From IMG/VR virus record IMGVR_UViG_3300042540_000238, positions 1-29,232 of that record: a DNA stretch of 29,232 nt; one strand, 5' to 3'. The notes beneath the pieces are model-generated. The model made no database searches, was not told where the DNA came from, and worked only from the letters and a program-made list of their open reading frames with translations. This stretch comes from a virus. The position numbers and the translations under genes are program-made. How positions within the stretch are numbered: the first letter of the stretch is position 1; every line of letters starts with the position of its first letter. Below, piece by piece: positions 167 through 28,000 of the stretch.

Positions 167-241
167 GCTTCATTCGTCTATTGGCTAGGACACTCGCCTC
201 TCAAGCGGGAAAGAGGAGATCGATACTCCTATGAAGCACCA
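167..241 (+). tRNA. tRNA-Glu (anticodon CTC)
   Basis: Full cloverleaf. The acceptor GCTTCAT/ATGAAGC pairs perfectly, with A73 and an encoded CCA. The anticodon stem is CTCGC/GCGGG around loop CTCTCAA, giving anticodon CTC, which reads GAG. The T stem is AGGAG/CTCCT with the atypical loop ATCGATA, which the His and Ile tRNAs of this array share. It is the first recognisable tRNA of the array and lies 5 bases before tRNA-Phe, so the two are probably cut from one transcript. Confidence 0.93.
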
Positions 242-246
242 TTTAT

Positions 247-322
247 GTGTCCCTGGTGTAGGTGATCCGCACGTCGGCTTGAAGTACCGAAGGACTTAGT
301 TTGATTCTAAGGGGACGCACCA
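247..322 (+). tRNA. tRNA-Phe (anticodon GAA)
   Basis: The acceptor GTGTCCC/GGGACGC has one G-U pair and is followed by A73 and CCA. The D stem is GTGT/GCAC. The anticodon stem TCGGC/ACCGA has one C-A mismatch next to the loop TTGAAGT, giving GAA. The T arm is CTTAG/CTAAG around TTTGATT. One base separates it from tRNA-Leu. The identity is clear, but the mismatch and the four-base variable loop make it slightly irregular. Confidence 0.88.
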
Positions 323-323
323 T

Positions 324-401
324 GGGCGCATGGACAAATAGGTAAAGTCAGTCGGCTCAAACCCGTAAGTTTTCTCGGTTCGAATCCGAGTGCGCCTACC
401 A
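324..401 (+). tRNA. tRNA-Leu (anticodon CAA), irregular anticodon stem
   Basis: The acceptor GGGCGCA/TGCGCCT carries A73 and CCA. The D arm is GAC/GTC, with a long AAATAGGTAAA loop. The T arm is CTCGG/CCGAG around a standard TTCGAAT loop. The most natural anticodon loop is CTCAAAC, giving CAA (codon TTG). However, only three anticodon-stem pairs (CGG/CCG) are good; the outer two are mismatched. The long class II variable arm expected of a leucine tRNA is almost absent. The gene is clear as a tRNA, but the isotype is less certain. Confidence 0.75.
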
Positions 402-405
402 ATTT

Positions 406-479
406 GCTGGGGTAGTGTAATGGAAGCACCCGAGTTTGTGGAACTCGGAGCCTAGGATCGATACCTAGTCCCAGTACCA
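406..479 (+). tRNA. tRNA-His (anticodon GTG), alphaproteobacterial type
   Basis: The acceptor is GCTGGGG/TCCCAGT with G1-U72 and G7-U66 wobbles, discriminator A73 and an encoded CCA. The anticodon stem CGAGT/ACTCG encloses TTGTGGA, giving GTG. The T arm is CTAGG/CCTAG. Most bacterial tRNA-His carry an extra G at -1 opposite C73. This gene cannot be read that way without breaking the CCA end. A73 with U72 and no G-1 is the form known from a group of alphaproteobacteria, which fits a host in that class. Confidence 0.93.
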
Positions 480-482
480 TTC

Positions 483-557
483 GCCGCAATAGCACAGAGG
501 TAGTGCATTCCCATGGTAAGGGAAAGGTCGTAGGTTCAATTCCTACTTGCGGCACCA
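483..557 (+). tRNA. tRNA-Thr (anticodon GGT)
   Basis: A regular cloverleaf. The acceptor GCCGCAA/TTGCGGC is perfect, with A73 and CCA. The D stem is GCAC/GTGC. The anticodon stem TTCCC/GGGAA surrounds ATGGTAA, giving GGT (codon ACC). The T arm is GTAGG/CCTAC around TTCAATT. G1-C72 and C2-G71 agree with threonine identity. Confidence 0.92.
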
Positions 558-562
558 GTTAC

Positions 563-636
563 GCCGGTTTAGTATAATGGCATTACAGTGGTTTCGTAGT
601 CCTCTGATAGCGGTTCGATTCCGTTAACCGGCACCA
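563..636 (+). tRNA. tRNA-Thr (anticodon CGT), weak anticodon stem
   Basis: The acceptor GCCGGTT/AACCGGC is perfect, with A73 and CCA. The T arm is AGCGG/CCGTT around TTCGATT. Numbering from the D arm puts the anticodon loop at TTCGTAG, giving CGT with A37. The stem GTGGT/TCCTC then has two U-U mismatches. A one-base shift would read TCG (Arg), but it puts U at position 37, which is unusual. The acceptor pairs match threonine. This gene ends four bases before the promoter of the phosphatase gene. Confidence 0.8.
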
Positions 637-640
637 TTAC

Positions 641-669
641 TTGACATTCCTTTTCGAATGTGATAGGAT
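641..669 (+). promoter_or_regulatory. Promoter of the HAD phosphatase gene, with -35/RBS inverted repeat
   Basis: TTGACA (641-646), a 17-base spacer and TAGGAT (664-669) form a sigma70-type promoter. The C before it matches the alphaproteobacterial CTTGAC preference. Transcription should start near 676. The ten bases ATTCCTTTTC (646-655) are the exact reverse complement of GAAAAGGAAT (687-696), which holds the Shine-Dalgarno and the first two bases of the ATG. The promoter's own RNA lacks the first arm. tRNA-array read-through RNA would contain both arms. Confidence 0.8.
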
Positions 670-694
670 TAGACATAATGTGAAAGGAAAAGGA

Positions 695-1159
695 ATGAAT
701 AAGGTTTGGATTTTTGATATTGACGGCACTCTTGCTGATAACGAACATCGTATGCACCATCTTGATAATGGTAAAAAGGAATGGGATGCGTTCTTTTCAA
801 AGCAGCATTTGGATGAGCCTTATCAGCCTGTAATCGATGTGTTACACGCTTTGGCTAATGATCGTCCGGGTGATAAGGTGATTATCGTTACTGCCCGTGA
901 TGAGCGTTTTCGTGAGGATACTTTAGAATGGGTCAATAAGCATATCCCGTGGATGTCCCACGATGATATGTATATGCGTCCTTTCGGCTTTCGTGGTAAT
1001 GATGACCTTTTGAAGGTTGCGATTATCAAGAATTGGCTTGCTGCTAACCCTGGTTATACTGTTGGTGCAATGTTTGATGATCGTCACCGTATCATCGATG
1101 CCTGTCGTGCCGAAGGCTGGTATACTTTCGAGTGTAACCAGTCTCGTAAGGAGTTTTGA
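695..1159 (+). CDS. HAD-family polynucleotide 3'-phosphatase-like protein
   Basis: A 154-residue protein resembling the isolated phosphatase domain of T4 polynucleotide kinase/3'-phosphatase. HAD motif I is DIDGT (D8, D10), motif II threonine is T66 in IIVTAR, K107 is a candidate for motif III and the FDDR acidic pair is D128/D129. The kinase domain of T4 PseT is absent. It may remove 3' phosphates from cleaved nucleic acid, for example damaged tRNA, since tRNA genes lie on both sides. The start at 695 is chosen because it follows GGAAAAGG at proper spacing and the HAD motif begins right after it; the frame is open upstream to 641, inside the promoter. The family is clear, but the substrate is inferred. 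Confidence 0.85.
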   Translation: MNKVWIFDIDGTLADNEHRMHHLDNGKKEWDAFFSKQHLDEPYQPVIDVLHALANDRPGDKVIIVTARDERFREDTLEWVNKHIPWMSHDDMYMRPFGFRGNDDLLKVAIIKNWLAANPGYTVGAMFDDRHRIIDACRAEGWYTFECNQSRKEF

Positions 1160-1624: not shown

Positions 1625-3088
1625 ATGCACCATGCTTTGATCTTTAGTATTTGTGAAAACTTCAACAAAAGATTACCAGGCGGACATAGAATTGCCACCC
1701 ATCTGAGACAAGAAGGATGGGATGTTGAGGTCATTGACTGGGCCAACTTCTTTGAATTGGATGAACTAAAAGAAATATGTAGATCACGAATATCCAACAA
1801 AACTGTATTTGTTGGATTTAGTGCTTTTATGAGTTATTGGGATCCAAACTTAGAATTATTCTGTCAATGGGTTACAGAAAATTATCCTGATGTAACGATC
1901 ATTCTAGGTGGTCAAAGTTCACCAAGAATGAAAACGAATTATATTCATTATTATGTTCATGGATATGGTGAAAAGGCTATAACCGAATTGACAAAAAGCC
2001 TAATAGGCAATACACCAATTGAAGGTATTAAGTTTGATCCTATTTATGAAGATAAAAAAGTTATCAATGCAATTAAAGACTATCCTGCTTTTCCTCAAAA
2101 AGAAGTAAAAATCGTTTATCAAAACCGAGACTTTATCGACCAACGAGAATGGTTGACCATGGAATTTTCCCGTGGTTGCATCTTCAAATGTTTGTATTGT
2201 AACTACCCCATTTTGGGAGTAAAAGGTGATTATACTCGGAGTGCCGAAGATTTTTATGAGGAAATGTCAACCAACTATGATAATTGGGGTGTTTCAAATT
2301 ATTTTGTAGCAGATGAAACATTCAATGATTATACTGAAAAGGTTGTAAAGTATGCTGATGCGGCGGATAGATTATCTTTTAGACCCTTCTTTAGCGCATT
2401 TTTGAGAGGTGACTTATTAGCAATTAGACCTCAAGATTGGGAACCTATGGTTCGCCTAGGGATGGTTGCTCATTTCTATGGATTAGAAAGTCTGAATCCT
2501 GCGAGTGCTAAGACTATTGGAAAAAGTAGTAATATGGAAAAAATATTGAGTGGTATTCTGGATGCCAAACAATATTTCAAAACTCATGGTGATGGATATT
2601 ATCGTGGTCATATATCACTTATTGCCGGTCTCCCACACGAAACAGTAGAAACGTTGAATAGAACTTTCAATTGGCTTGAGGAAAATTGGAAAGGTGAATT
2701 TTATAGTATCAATCCTTTGGAAATTCCACTAGATCCGACAATGGACAGGTTATCTACCCTTAGTTTAGATTATAGCAAATGGGGATATCGACATATAACA
2801 AATTCAAAGGTAGAAAGAATTGGTATCGAACAAGTTGCTAAAAAAATGATGTGGGAAAATGATAACATGGACATTTTTACGGCACAAGATATATGCAATG
2901 ATATGAACTTTCACCTATACAATAGTGGCGAATATGGAGCGACTGGATTTAATTTACATTTTCTTTATCAAAGAAATCTATCAATCTTAGATTGTTTGAA
3001 ATCAAAAGTTGGGTTTCAAACACATATGGATGACTCAATTTTCTATGACCGATTACAAGATTATAAACACAAAAAACTAAGTCTATAA
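1625..3088 (+). CDS. B12-binding-type radical SAM protein
   Basis: A 487-residue protein. The N-terminal 130 residues look like the Rossmann-like B12-binding domain common to B12 radical SAM enzymes: a GGHR...LRQEGWDVEVIDW start, ILGGQSS near residue 93 and HGYGEKAITEL near 112. The radical SAM core follows, with C185, C189 and C192 in GCIFKCLYC binding the [4Fe-4S] cluster. Such enzymes cleave SAM to a 5'-deoxyadenosyl radical and often methylate or rearrange unactivated carbon. The substrate is unknown. The gene is AT-rich, uses many ATA, AGA and AAT codons unlike the structural genes, and sits between two tRNA-Gln genes, ending three bases before the second. The neighbouring unknown gene at 3183 has similar composition and may be a partner. 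No clear Shine-Dalgarno is visible. Confidence 0.88.
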   Translation: MHHALIFSICENFNKRLPGGHRIATHLRQEGWDVEVIDWANFFELDELKEICRSRISNKTVFVGFSAFMSYWDPNLELFCQWVTENYPDVTIILGGQSSPRMKTNYIHYYVHGYGEKAITELTKSLIGNTPIEGIKFDPIYEDKKVINAIKDYPAFPQKEVKIVYQNRDFIDQREWLTMEFSRGCIFKCLYCNYPILGVKGDYTRSAEDFYEEMSTNYDNWGVSNYFVADETFNDYTEKVVKYADAADRLSFRPFFSAFLRGDLLAIRPQDWEPMVRLGMVAHFYGLESLNPASAKTIGKSSNMEKILSGILDAKQYFKTHGDGYYRGHISLIAGLPHETVETLNRTFNWLEENWKGEFYSINPLEIPLDPTMDRLSTLSLDYSKWGYRHITNSKVERIGIEQVAKKMMWENDNMDIFTAQDICNDMNFHLYNSGEYGATGFNLHFLYQRNLSILDCLKSKVGFQTHMDDSIFYDRLQDYKHKKLSL

Positions 3089-4389: not shown

Positions 4390-4418
4390 TTGACAAATCG
4401 ACAAGGTGCCTATATATT
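4390..4418 (+). promoter_or_regulatory. Promoter of the 75-residue exported protein gene
   Basis: TTGACA (4390-4395), 17 bases and TATATT (4413-4418); the box could also be read as TATATA at 4411 with a 15-base spacer. It begins just after the RlpA-like stop. The predicted start near 4424-4425 falls at the base of a stem-loop, so the mRNA would begin with a 5'-terminal hairpin. Confidence 0.72.
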
Positions 4419-4484: not shown

Positions 4485-4712
4485 ATGAATAAAGTTATTT
4501 CTCTACTAACTATCCTCACACTAGCAACACCAGCATTTGCAACTGAATATAAGACCGATACATTTGAGAAGTATGGTTATGCTGCTGGTGCTTCTACTAT
4601 CCCTAGCACTGAATTGAAGGGTGGTCTCCGTGGTTCTCACGTTGCTGCTAATCATCATAAGGAAAACTCCTATTATCCTGGATTCATTGCTACCCAGCCT
4701 AAGGAAAAGTAA
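4485..4712 (+). CDS. Short exported protein, unknown function
   Basis: Encodes 75 residues. Residues 1-19 are a textbook signal peptide ending AFA, with cleavage predicted before TEYKTD. The mature part is about 56 residues, rich in Tyr, Gly, Ser and His, with no cysteine and no recognised domain. It has its own promoter, a structured leader and a strong AAAGGAAAAG ribosome site, so it is probably made in quantity. A 21/27 match of its ribosome-site region is found before the M15-like peptidase gene at 7739, suggesting joint control. No function can be given. Confidence 0.75.
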   Translation: MNKVISLLTILTLATPAFATEYKTDTFEKYGYAAGASTIPSTELKGGLRGSHVAANHHKENSYYPGFIATQPKEK

Positions 4713-4719
4713 AATAGAC

Positions 4720-4748
4720 TTGACATTCCGTTTCTTCTGTGCTATCCT
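4720..4748 (+). promoter_or_regulatory. Promoter of the 89-residue gene, with -35/RBS inverted repeat
   Basis: TTGACA (4720-4725), 17 bases and TATCCT (4743-4748). ATTCCGTTTC (4725-4734) is the exact reverse complement of GAAACGGAAT (4768-4777), which spans the ribosome-binding region and start codon. Compared with the cassette at 641, both arms changed together (T to G and A to C), so pairing is kept. The two cassettes also share CATAATGTGA near the expected RNA start. Confidence 0.8.
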
Positions 4749-4775
4749 TATTCATAATGTGAGAGGAGAAACGGA

Positions 4776-5045
4776 ATGGTTAGCAAGACTGTTTATCGAG
4801 AAGTCGCCGTTGATGTTGATGTCGACCTTTGTGATTATGACACGGACGAATTGATTGAGGAAATCGAGTATCGTGATGGTGGTAACAAATGGGAAGTTGT
4901 TGACAAGAATAACACCGAGTTTGTTGCACCTCGTGTCTATGATGAAATCTATGAATTGTATCGTGACTATATAAGTCGTAGCCCGTCTTTCGAAGAAAAC
5001 CTTAAAGGCTTCTTTGAGAATTATGCTGGTTCTATCGTTCTCTAA
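4776..5045 (+). CDS. Acidic hypothetical protein
   Basis: Encodes 89 residues, strongly acidic, with an N-terminal stretch VAVDVDVDLCDYDTDELIEE and no signal peptide. No family recognised. GAGGAGAAAC precedes the ATG, so the start is well supported. The gene has its own promoter cassette, nearly a copy of the one before the HAD phosphatase, hinting that the two are expressed in the same phase. Acidic early proteins of this size are sometimes host-protein inhibitors or DNA mimics, but nothing here proves that. Confidence 0.75.
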   Translation: MVSKTVYREVAVDVDVDLCDYDTDELIEEIEYRDGGNKWEVVDKNNTEFVAPRVYDEIYELYRDYISRSPSFEENLKGFFENYAGSIVL

Positions 5046-26916: not shown

Positions 26917-26945
26917 TTGACATAGTGTCAGGTGAATGATATAGT
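26917..26945 (+). promoter_or_regulatory. Promoter of the primase gene, with -35/RBS complementarity
   Basis: TTGACA (26917-26922), 17 bases and TATAGT (26940-26945); start expected near 26952. CACTTGACA (26914-26922) can pair with TGTCAGGTG (26959-26967), nine pairs with one G-U, which covers the AGGTGG ribosome site. TGTCAGGTG also occurs just after the -35 box (26926-26934), so two alternative folds exist. Confidence 0.82.
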
Positions 26946-26971
26946 GTTGTTTATTATGTGTCAGGTGGAAT

Positions 26972-28000
26972 ATGTCCGTTTATATCGATAAGAAGTATAT
27001 CTCTCTCCTCGCTCCTAGACTAAAACAGTTCAAGCAGCGGGGAGAGTTTTTATGGAACTTTAGATGTCCTGTTTGTGGAGATTCCTCCAAGGATAAGACA
27101 AAGGCCCGTGGTTATATCTATAAGAAGAAAGAAAACTTCTTCTTTATGTGCCACAACTGTCATTCGTCTACCACGTTCCAAAAGTTCCTAAAAGATGAAG
27201 ATCCAATGCTATACCGTGACTATGTATTGGAGGCCTTTGTGCAATCCAATACCAGAAATAGTGTAAACGTTCAGGACTTTGTAACCAAACCGGTATTCAA
27301 ACCTTTATTTCATGTACCAAGTTCTGATGCTTTGTTTGCTGCTGGTGCGGGTCGTATCAAGGCGTTACCACCAGAGTTCTATGCAAGAAAGTATCTTGAG
27401 GATCGTAAGGTATCTCTTATAGATATGTGGTTTGCGGCAGACTTTGCGGAGTTTGTCAAGAACCTTTACCCACACTATGAGAAAACACTATATAAGGAAC
27501 CACGCATAATCATACCGTTCAAAGACAAGGACGGTAACCTTCTAGGCATCCAGGGGCGATCACTTGACAGACATGCGAAGATCAAATATATCACAATCAA
27601 AGGCGATGAAACTAACCCTAAGATTTTTGGCTGGGATAGATTGGATGCATTGCAAACTGTGTATGTGGTTGAGGGACCCATCGATTCTCTTTTCCTTACT
27701 AATTGCGTGGCTACTATGGATGCAGCATTATACGGTGCTCCTCGCATCTTAGGTCTTGACAAGAACTACGTTTTTGTATATGATAATGAACCTAGGAACA
27801 AACAGATTGTTTCTAATATGCGGAAAACAATCGAAATGGGATACAAGGTCTGCATTTGGCCTGATACCATAAAAGAAAAAGATATCAACGAAATGGTCCT
27901 GGCGGGTACCTCACCTGCTGCCATCCAACACATTATAGATAATAATACATACAAAGGATTATTAGCGACTATGAGAATGAACCAGTGGAGTAAATTATGA
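26972..28000 (+). CDS. DNA primase, T4 gp61 type
   Basis: A 342-residue primase. The zinc ribbon has CPVC (C32, C35) and CHNC (C60, C63). A TOPRIM domain follows with VVEGPIDSLF (E234, D238) and acidic YDNEP and WPDT. It makes RNA primers for lagging-strand synthesis with the phage helicase (gp41-type, outside the window). AGGTGG lies five to nine bases before the ATG. The length matches T4 gp61. It has its own promoter and overlaps the next gene by four bases. Confidence 0.92.
   Translation: MSVYIDKKYISLLAPRLKQFKQRGEFLWNFRCPVCGDSSKDKTKARGYIYKKKENFFFMCHNCHSSTTFQKFLKDEDPMLYRDYVLEAFVQSNTRNSVNVQDFVTKPVFKPLFHVPSSDALFAAGAGRIKALPPEFYARKYLEDRKVSLIDMWFAADFAEFVKNLYPHYEKTLYKEPRIIIPFKDKDGNLLGIQGRSLDRHAKIKYITIKGDETNPKIFGWDRLDALQTVYVVEGPIDSLFLTNCVATMDAALYGAPRILGLDKNYVFVYDNEPRNKQIVSNMRKTIEMGYKVCIWPDTIKEKDINEMVLAGTSPAAIQHIIDNNTYKGLLATMRMNQWSKL

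Follow-up and report, generated by a model that had tools for sequence, protein, structure and literature searches.

Sigma70-type promoters embedded in inverted repeats that may hide start sites on read-through RNA in uncultured T4-like phages

In the 29,232-nucleotide stretch of viral DNA analysed here (IMG/VR record IMGVR_UViG_3300042540_000238, positions 1 to 29,232; hereafter the window), two copies of one design, at 641 and 4720, enclose a sigma70-type promoter in an inverted repeat, the second half of which consists of the ribosome-binding site (RBS) and start codon of the following gene. Judging from the sequence, we consider it likely that this arrangement hides the start site on read-through RNA and exposes it on RNA from the gene's own promoter. 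RNA entering from upstream, whether from a tRNA operon or from a neighbouring gene, would carry both halves of the repeat and fold into a long stem on which translation cannot start. RNA made from the embedded promoter would begin past the left half, would lack the stem and would be translated. The gene would then be expressed only upon firing of its own promoter, regardless of transcription arriving from upstream. If this is true, start-site hiding on read-through RNA is not confined to the late genes of T4, and also serves ordinary sigma70-type promoters across a broad set of uncultured T4-like phages. It would be recognisable from sequence alone, as a promoter spacer complementary to the RBS, which would offer a simple means of testing whole genomes for genes that have to be shielded from upstream transcription in a phage.

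Both cassettes lie on the + strand and follow the same order: TTGACA, a 17-base spacer, TAnnnT with an extended -10 TG, the conserved CATAATGTGA, a Shine-Dalgarno (SD) sequence and ATG. In cassette 2, the promoter scan places the -35 box TTGACA at 4720..4725; the left arm, CATTCCGTTTCTTCT (4724..4738), opens with the final two bases of this box and precedes the predicted transcription start. The -10 box TATCCT, with its extended TG, follows the 17-base spacer at 4743..4748, CATAATGTGA (4753..4762) surrounds the predicted start and would lie in the hairpin loop, and the right arm, AGGAGAAACGGAATG (4764..4778), constitutes the SD sequence and AUG of the gene at 4776. Positions 4724-4738 and 4764-4778 form 15 pairs, one of them G.U (T.G in the DNA). 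In cassette 1, the -35 box TTGACA (641..646) begins 4 bases past a tRNA-Thr gene, the left arm is CATTCCTTTTC (645..655), the scan places the -10 box TAGGAT at 664..669, and the right arm, GAAAAGGAATG (687..697), again supplies the SD sequence and AUG, here of the gene at 695; 645-655 pairs with 687-697 through 11 pairs. Since the left arm starts at the CA of TTGACA, it is upstream of any start that the embedded promoter could use, and since the right arm is the SD sequence and AUG, the stem is possible only in read-through RNA. The shorter arms named in the first-pass annotation, ATTCCGTTTC (4725-4734) with GAAACGGAAT (4768-4777) and ATTCCTTTTC (646-655) with GAAAAGGAAT (687-696), are exact in letters and coordinates; those of cassette 2 pair perfectly, both stems are in fact longer, and CATAATGTGA is indeed shared by both copies. 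The position of the left arm in the promoter, ahead of the RNA start, is not mentioned there, although it decides how the design can work. Both cassettes recur, identical to the letter, in an IMG/VR contig of 164 kb. Predicted folds of the window copies, read-through RNA versus own RNA, are -26.0 versus -4.9 and -15.2 versus -1.7. Opening the RBS has a predicted cost that is 6.7-16 kcal higher in read-through RNA than in RNA from the embedded promoter for the top 13 of 113 promoters, all of which are cassettes of this design, against an overall median of 1.3.

Pairing of this kind could in principle be functionless, arising where a pyrimidine-rich spacer meets a purine-rich RBS and persisting through the ancestry of a duplicated cassette. 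When the spacers were shuffled, about 0.1% of trials for the 4720 copy and 0.05% for the 641 copy matched the observed pairing. We assembled 114 units of sigma70-type promoter, SD sequence and ATG from 18 phage records and seven further loci, and compared the spacer-RBS pairing of each with that of composition-preserving shuffles of its spacer. Twelve units reached p<=0.01 against an expectation of 1.1. All but one of the 12 are copies of this cassette; several of these are orthologous to one another, so they do not count as 11 independent events. By orthologous family, 2 of 17 pair, namely the promoters of the PNKP-phosphatase gene in tRNA arrays and of the gene at 4776, whereas the 15 other families, each with at least three members, do not pair in this way (family p 0.1-0.78). 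A single restriction-endonuclease-like gene in a 174-kb relative (PADLOC REase_II, E 6e-15) also pairs, with 21 pairs. Only the -35/-10 spacer is complementary to the RBS, with a mean duplex of -14.6 kcal against about -5.5 kcal in windows further upstream. A scan in which the promoter and CATAATGTGA were fixed and the arms left free returned 29 stretches, and in this phage group most of them pair; another scan, with TTGACATTCC...GGAATG fixed, was dropped because it gave mainly chance matches. Thus in most cassettes shuffled spacers rarely do as well as the native one, and pairing is absent from the control promoters of these phages, both of which speak against functionless pairing. What it has in its favour is that TTGACATTCC, part of the left arm, is common to most cassettes and turns up at tRNA promoters as well, that several copies are broken, and that covariation by alignment column is modest. 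The advantage of native over swapped arms and the continued pairing of register-shifted orthologues, both described below, already disfavour it, and we regard it as highly improbable.

Two further observations concern the same promoters. TTGACATTCC promoters with no RBS stand directly before tRNA-Arg-like genes (L172:15953, L029:5032 (minus)), and the TTCC that follows the -35 box, which makes up four left-arm bases, may itself serve the promoter or be there by chance. In orthologues of a gene whose product begins MPLL (L302:3345, L296:7164, L310:7120 (minus)), the spacer pairs with the start region in very different letters, the arms in L302 being CAACGGCAATAT/ATATGCCGTTG; as a third paired family these fall below significance (family p 0.096), with L310 less clear and L172 unpaired.

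Homologues were gathered by protein search, with orthologues from about 20 phage contigs, and 25 distinct cassettes were compared. In nearly all of these cassettes the -35/-10 spacer holds the left arm, and the right arm falls on the SD sequence and/or AUG. Native arms pair better than arms swapped between cassettes (mean -15.3 versus -12.7 kcal, P=2e-5), and they do so within both families (PNKP P=0.0008, P0001, the gene at 4776, P=0.0015), although these family p-values overstate independence, as orthologues share ancestry. Pairs are retained despite other letters or another register in L197 (12 pairs, one G.U), L200 (12), L331 (15, two G.U) and L344 (9), the last encoding a protein 53% identical to the query. 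L184 and L217 differ at two places on both sides of the stem (GCTTCTCT/AGAGAAGC versus GTTTCTCC/GGAGAAAC). In the first-pass annotation, the argument for selection on the pairing had rested on one paired change between the window cassettes, T to G at the sixth base of the left arm and A to C at its partner. That change is there, but it separates two paralogous cassettes in front of different genes and so does not amount to a single mutational step. It is weak evidence by itself; it is the swapped arms and the re-lettered orthologues that carry the claim. The covariation check over all copies that it had proposed, done here as an ungapped column-by-column test, gave only P=0.045, because orthologues vary in bulges and register; as the MAFFT alignment of the cassettes registers the SD sequence and not the stem, no column-based pair count was taken from it. 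Unpaired arm changes, whose occurrence at the chance rate it had named as evidence against selection, are in part seen in other copies: L196, L209, L211, L213 and L220 are poorly paired, and pairs are broken or lost, in part or altogether, in L202, L209, L211/L213 and L220. Altogether, the comparison supports the view that pairing is conserved while sequence, register and bulges change, and that the pairing itself is selected. In L011 (11659-12313, minus), a cassette is kept with changes on both sides, and in place of the 89-aa gene there is an 11-codon reading frame that overlaps a gene resembling those of 2OG-Fe(II) oxygenases.

The way in which the arms vary also bears on whether the repeat acts as DNA. 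A dimeric regulator binding two half-sites, one in the promoter spacer and the other at the RBS, could repress the promoter, and the geometry would suit such an operator insofar as the repeat is inverted, its half-site centres are usually 36-44 bases apart and the left half-site overlaps the promoter. However, a dimeric repressor calls for conserved half-site letters and a fixed helical phase, and neither was found: the letters of the half-sites vary among orthologues while their complementarity is kept, and the distance between centres ranges over 26-44 bases without helical phase. Bulges, internal loops and G.U pairs are present, and the right arm tracks the SD sequence and AUG. We therefore hold an operator to be highly improbable and favour a stem formed in read-through RNA.

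The surroundings of the cassettes offer candidate sources for such RNA. Cassette 1 precedes a gene within a tRNA array for a PNKP-type 3'-phosphatase domain protein of 154 aa (695..1159, +; Pfam PF25109, E 1.4e-19; the PHROG match is polynucleotide kinase), and six tRNA genes directly 5' of it (167..636, +) are a possible source of read-through RNA. Cassette 2 precedes P0001, a gene for an 89-aa protein (4776..5045, +) without a match in Pfam, PHROGs, NCBIfam or PADLOC. Upstream of it lies the sigma70-type promoter of the ORF at 4485 (4390..4418, +), and the window scan found no terminator-like site between that promoter and cassette 2, nor any just 5' of either window cassette. Most cassettes start no more than about 25 bases from where an upstream gene or tRNA in the same direction ends. 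In most orthologues examined the PNKP gene is flanked by tRNAs on both sides, whereas P0001 copies do not directly follow tRNAs. In L211/L213, GATAAATA lies just 5' of the cassette, which would fit late read-through. A stem in such a place might instead be a processing site, at which RNase III or a similar enzyme separates the gene from the precursor of the tRNAs or from the mRNA upstream, and both the near-perfect stems of up to 15-21 pairs and the position of the PNKP copy inside tRNA arrays would agree with that. Yet many stems have just 9-12 pairs with bulges, the P0001 copies lack the adjoining tRNAs, and the right arm coincides with the SD sequence and/or AUG in nearly every copy, which processing would not need; to this explanation we give very little credence. 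As for the purpose of hiding the start on read-through RNA, early-only expression and insulation from tRNA-operon transcription are both candidates. A more specific and rather doubtful suggestion is that the hairpin keeps ribosomes off the tRNA precursor, such that the array gene would be translated from its own sigma70-type transcript only and the downstream tRNAs would be spared from unfolding, a role that would parallel the one demonstrated for the hairpin of I-TevI in td splicing.

The window belongs to a T4-like phage: it encodes a primase 45% identical to that of Synechococcus T4-like phages and has ten tRNA genes. Apart from tRNAs, no Rfam family matched the window above its gathering score, and no DNA match to cultured phages beyond tRNAs was seen among the best 20 of 30 records; no relatives were found in cellular genomes. 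Between two tRNA groups the window encodes a radical SAM protein with a B12-binding domain (1625-3088). The window has 15 TAAATA sites on the coding (+) strand and 3 on the opposite one, several of them at gene ends (+ strand sites include 7559, 8237, 9192, 14235, 17821, 19870 and 22595), and these sites are possible T4-type late promoters. At the primase promoter, TTGACATAGTGTCAGGTGAATGATATAGTG...TTATGTGTCAGGTGGAATATG (26917-26975), a direct repeat of GTGTCAGGTG covers the spacer before the -10 box and the RBS; it is partly kept in the orthologues of G004, G006 and G009 and is possibly an operator.

Promoters inside RBS-sequestering hairpins are known from T4 e, soc, 49, I-TevI and segB and from Aeh1 mobE, where, in the cases described, a late promoter is so placed that long transcripts contain both halves of the stem and hide the SD sequence and AUG, while RNA from the embedded promoter lacks the 5' half and is translated; effects have been measured for T4 e (100-fold), soc, 49, I-TevI and mobE (PMC3014915, PMC2988022). 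The window copies and most of their orthologues resemble this class in that the 3' half of a stable stem contains the SD sequence and/or AUG, and in that the promoter is placed so that its own RNA, from the start predicted here, would lack the 5' half. They differ from it in the promoter, which is not the TATAAATA late promoter but a sigma70-type TTGACA-17-TAnnnT at both 641 and 4720, and in that the -35 box belongs to the stem. The genes differ as well, those of the T4 class being late and those here being the PNKP-phosphatase in a tRNA array, the small protein P0001 and, in a relative, a restriction endonuclease. In IS10 and IS50, the transposase is protected from external promoters, as read-through RNA folds and hides its start, while the transcript of the element's own sigma70-type promoter leaves that start free. 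However, the IS10/IS50 repeat derives from the transposon ends, whereas the cassettes belong to phage genes with no transposon, and their letters vary between orthologues. In IS200, an inverted repeat in the tnpA leader hides the RBS (PMC12594629), but that stem has been described as part of the tnpA transcript itself, whereas the cassette genes' own transcripts are predicted to lack the left half. The best explanation, in our view, is that these cassettes extend the trick of the T4 late genes to sigma70-type promoters and to new genes.
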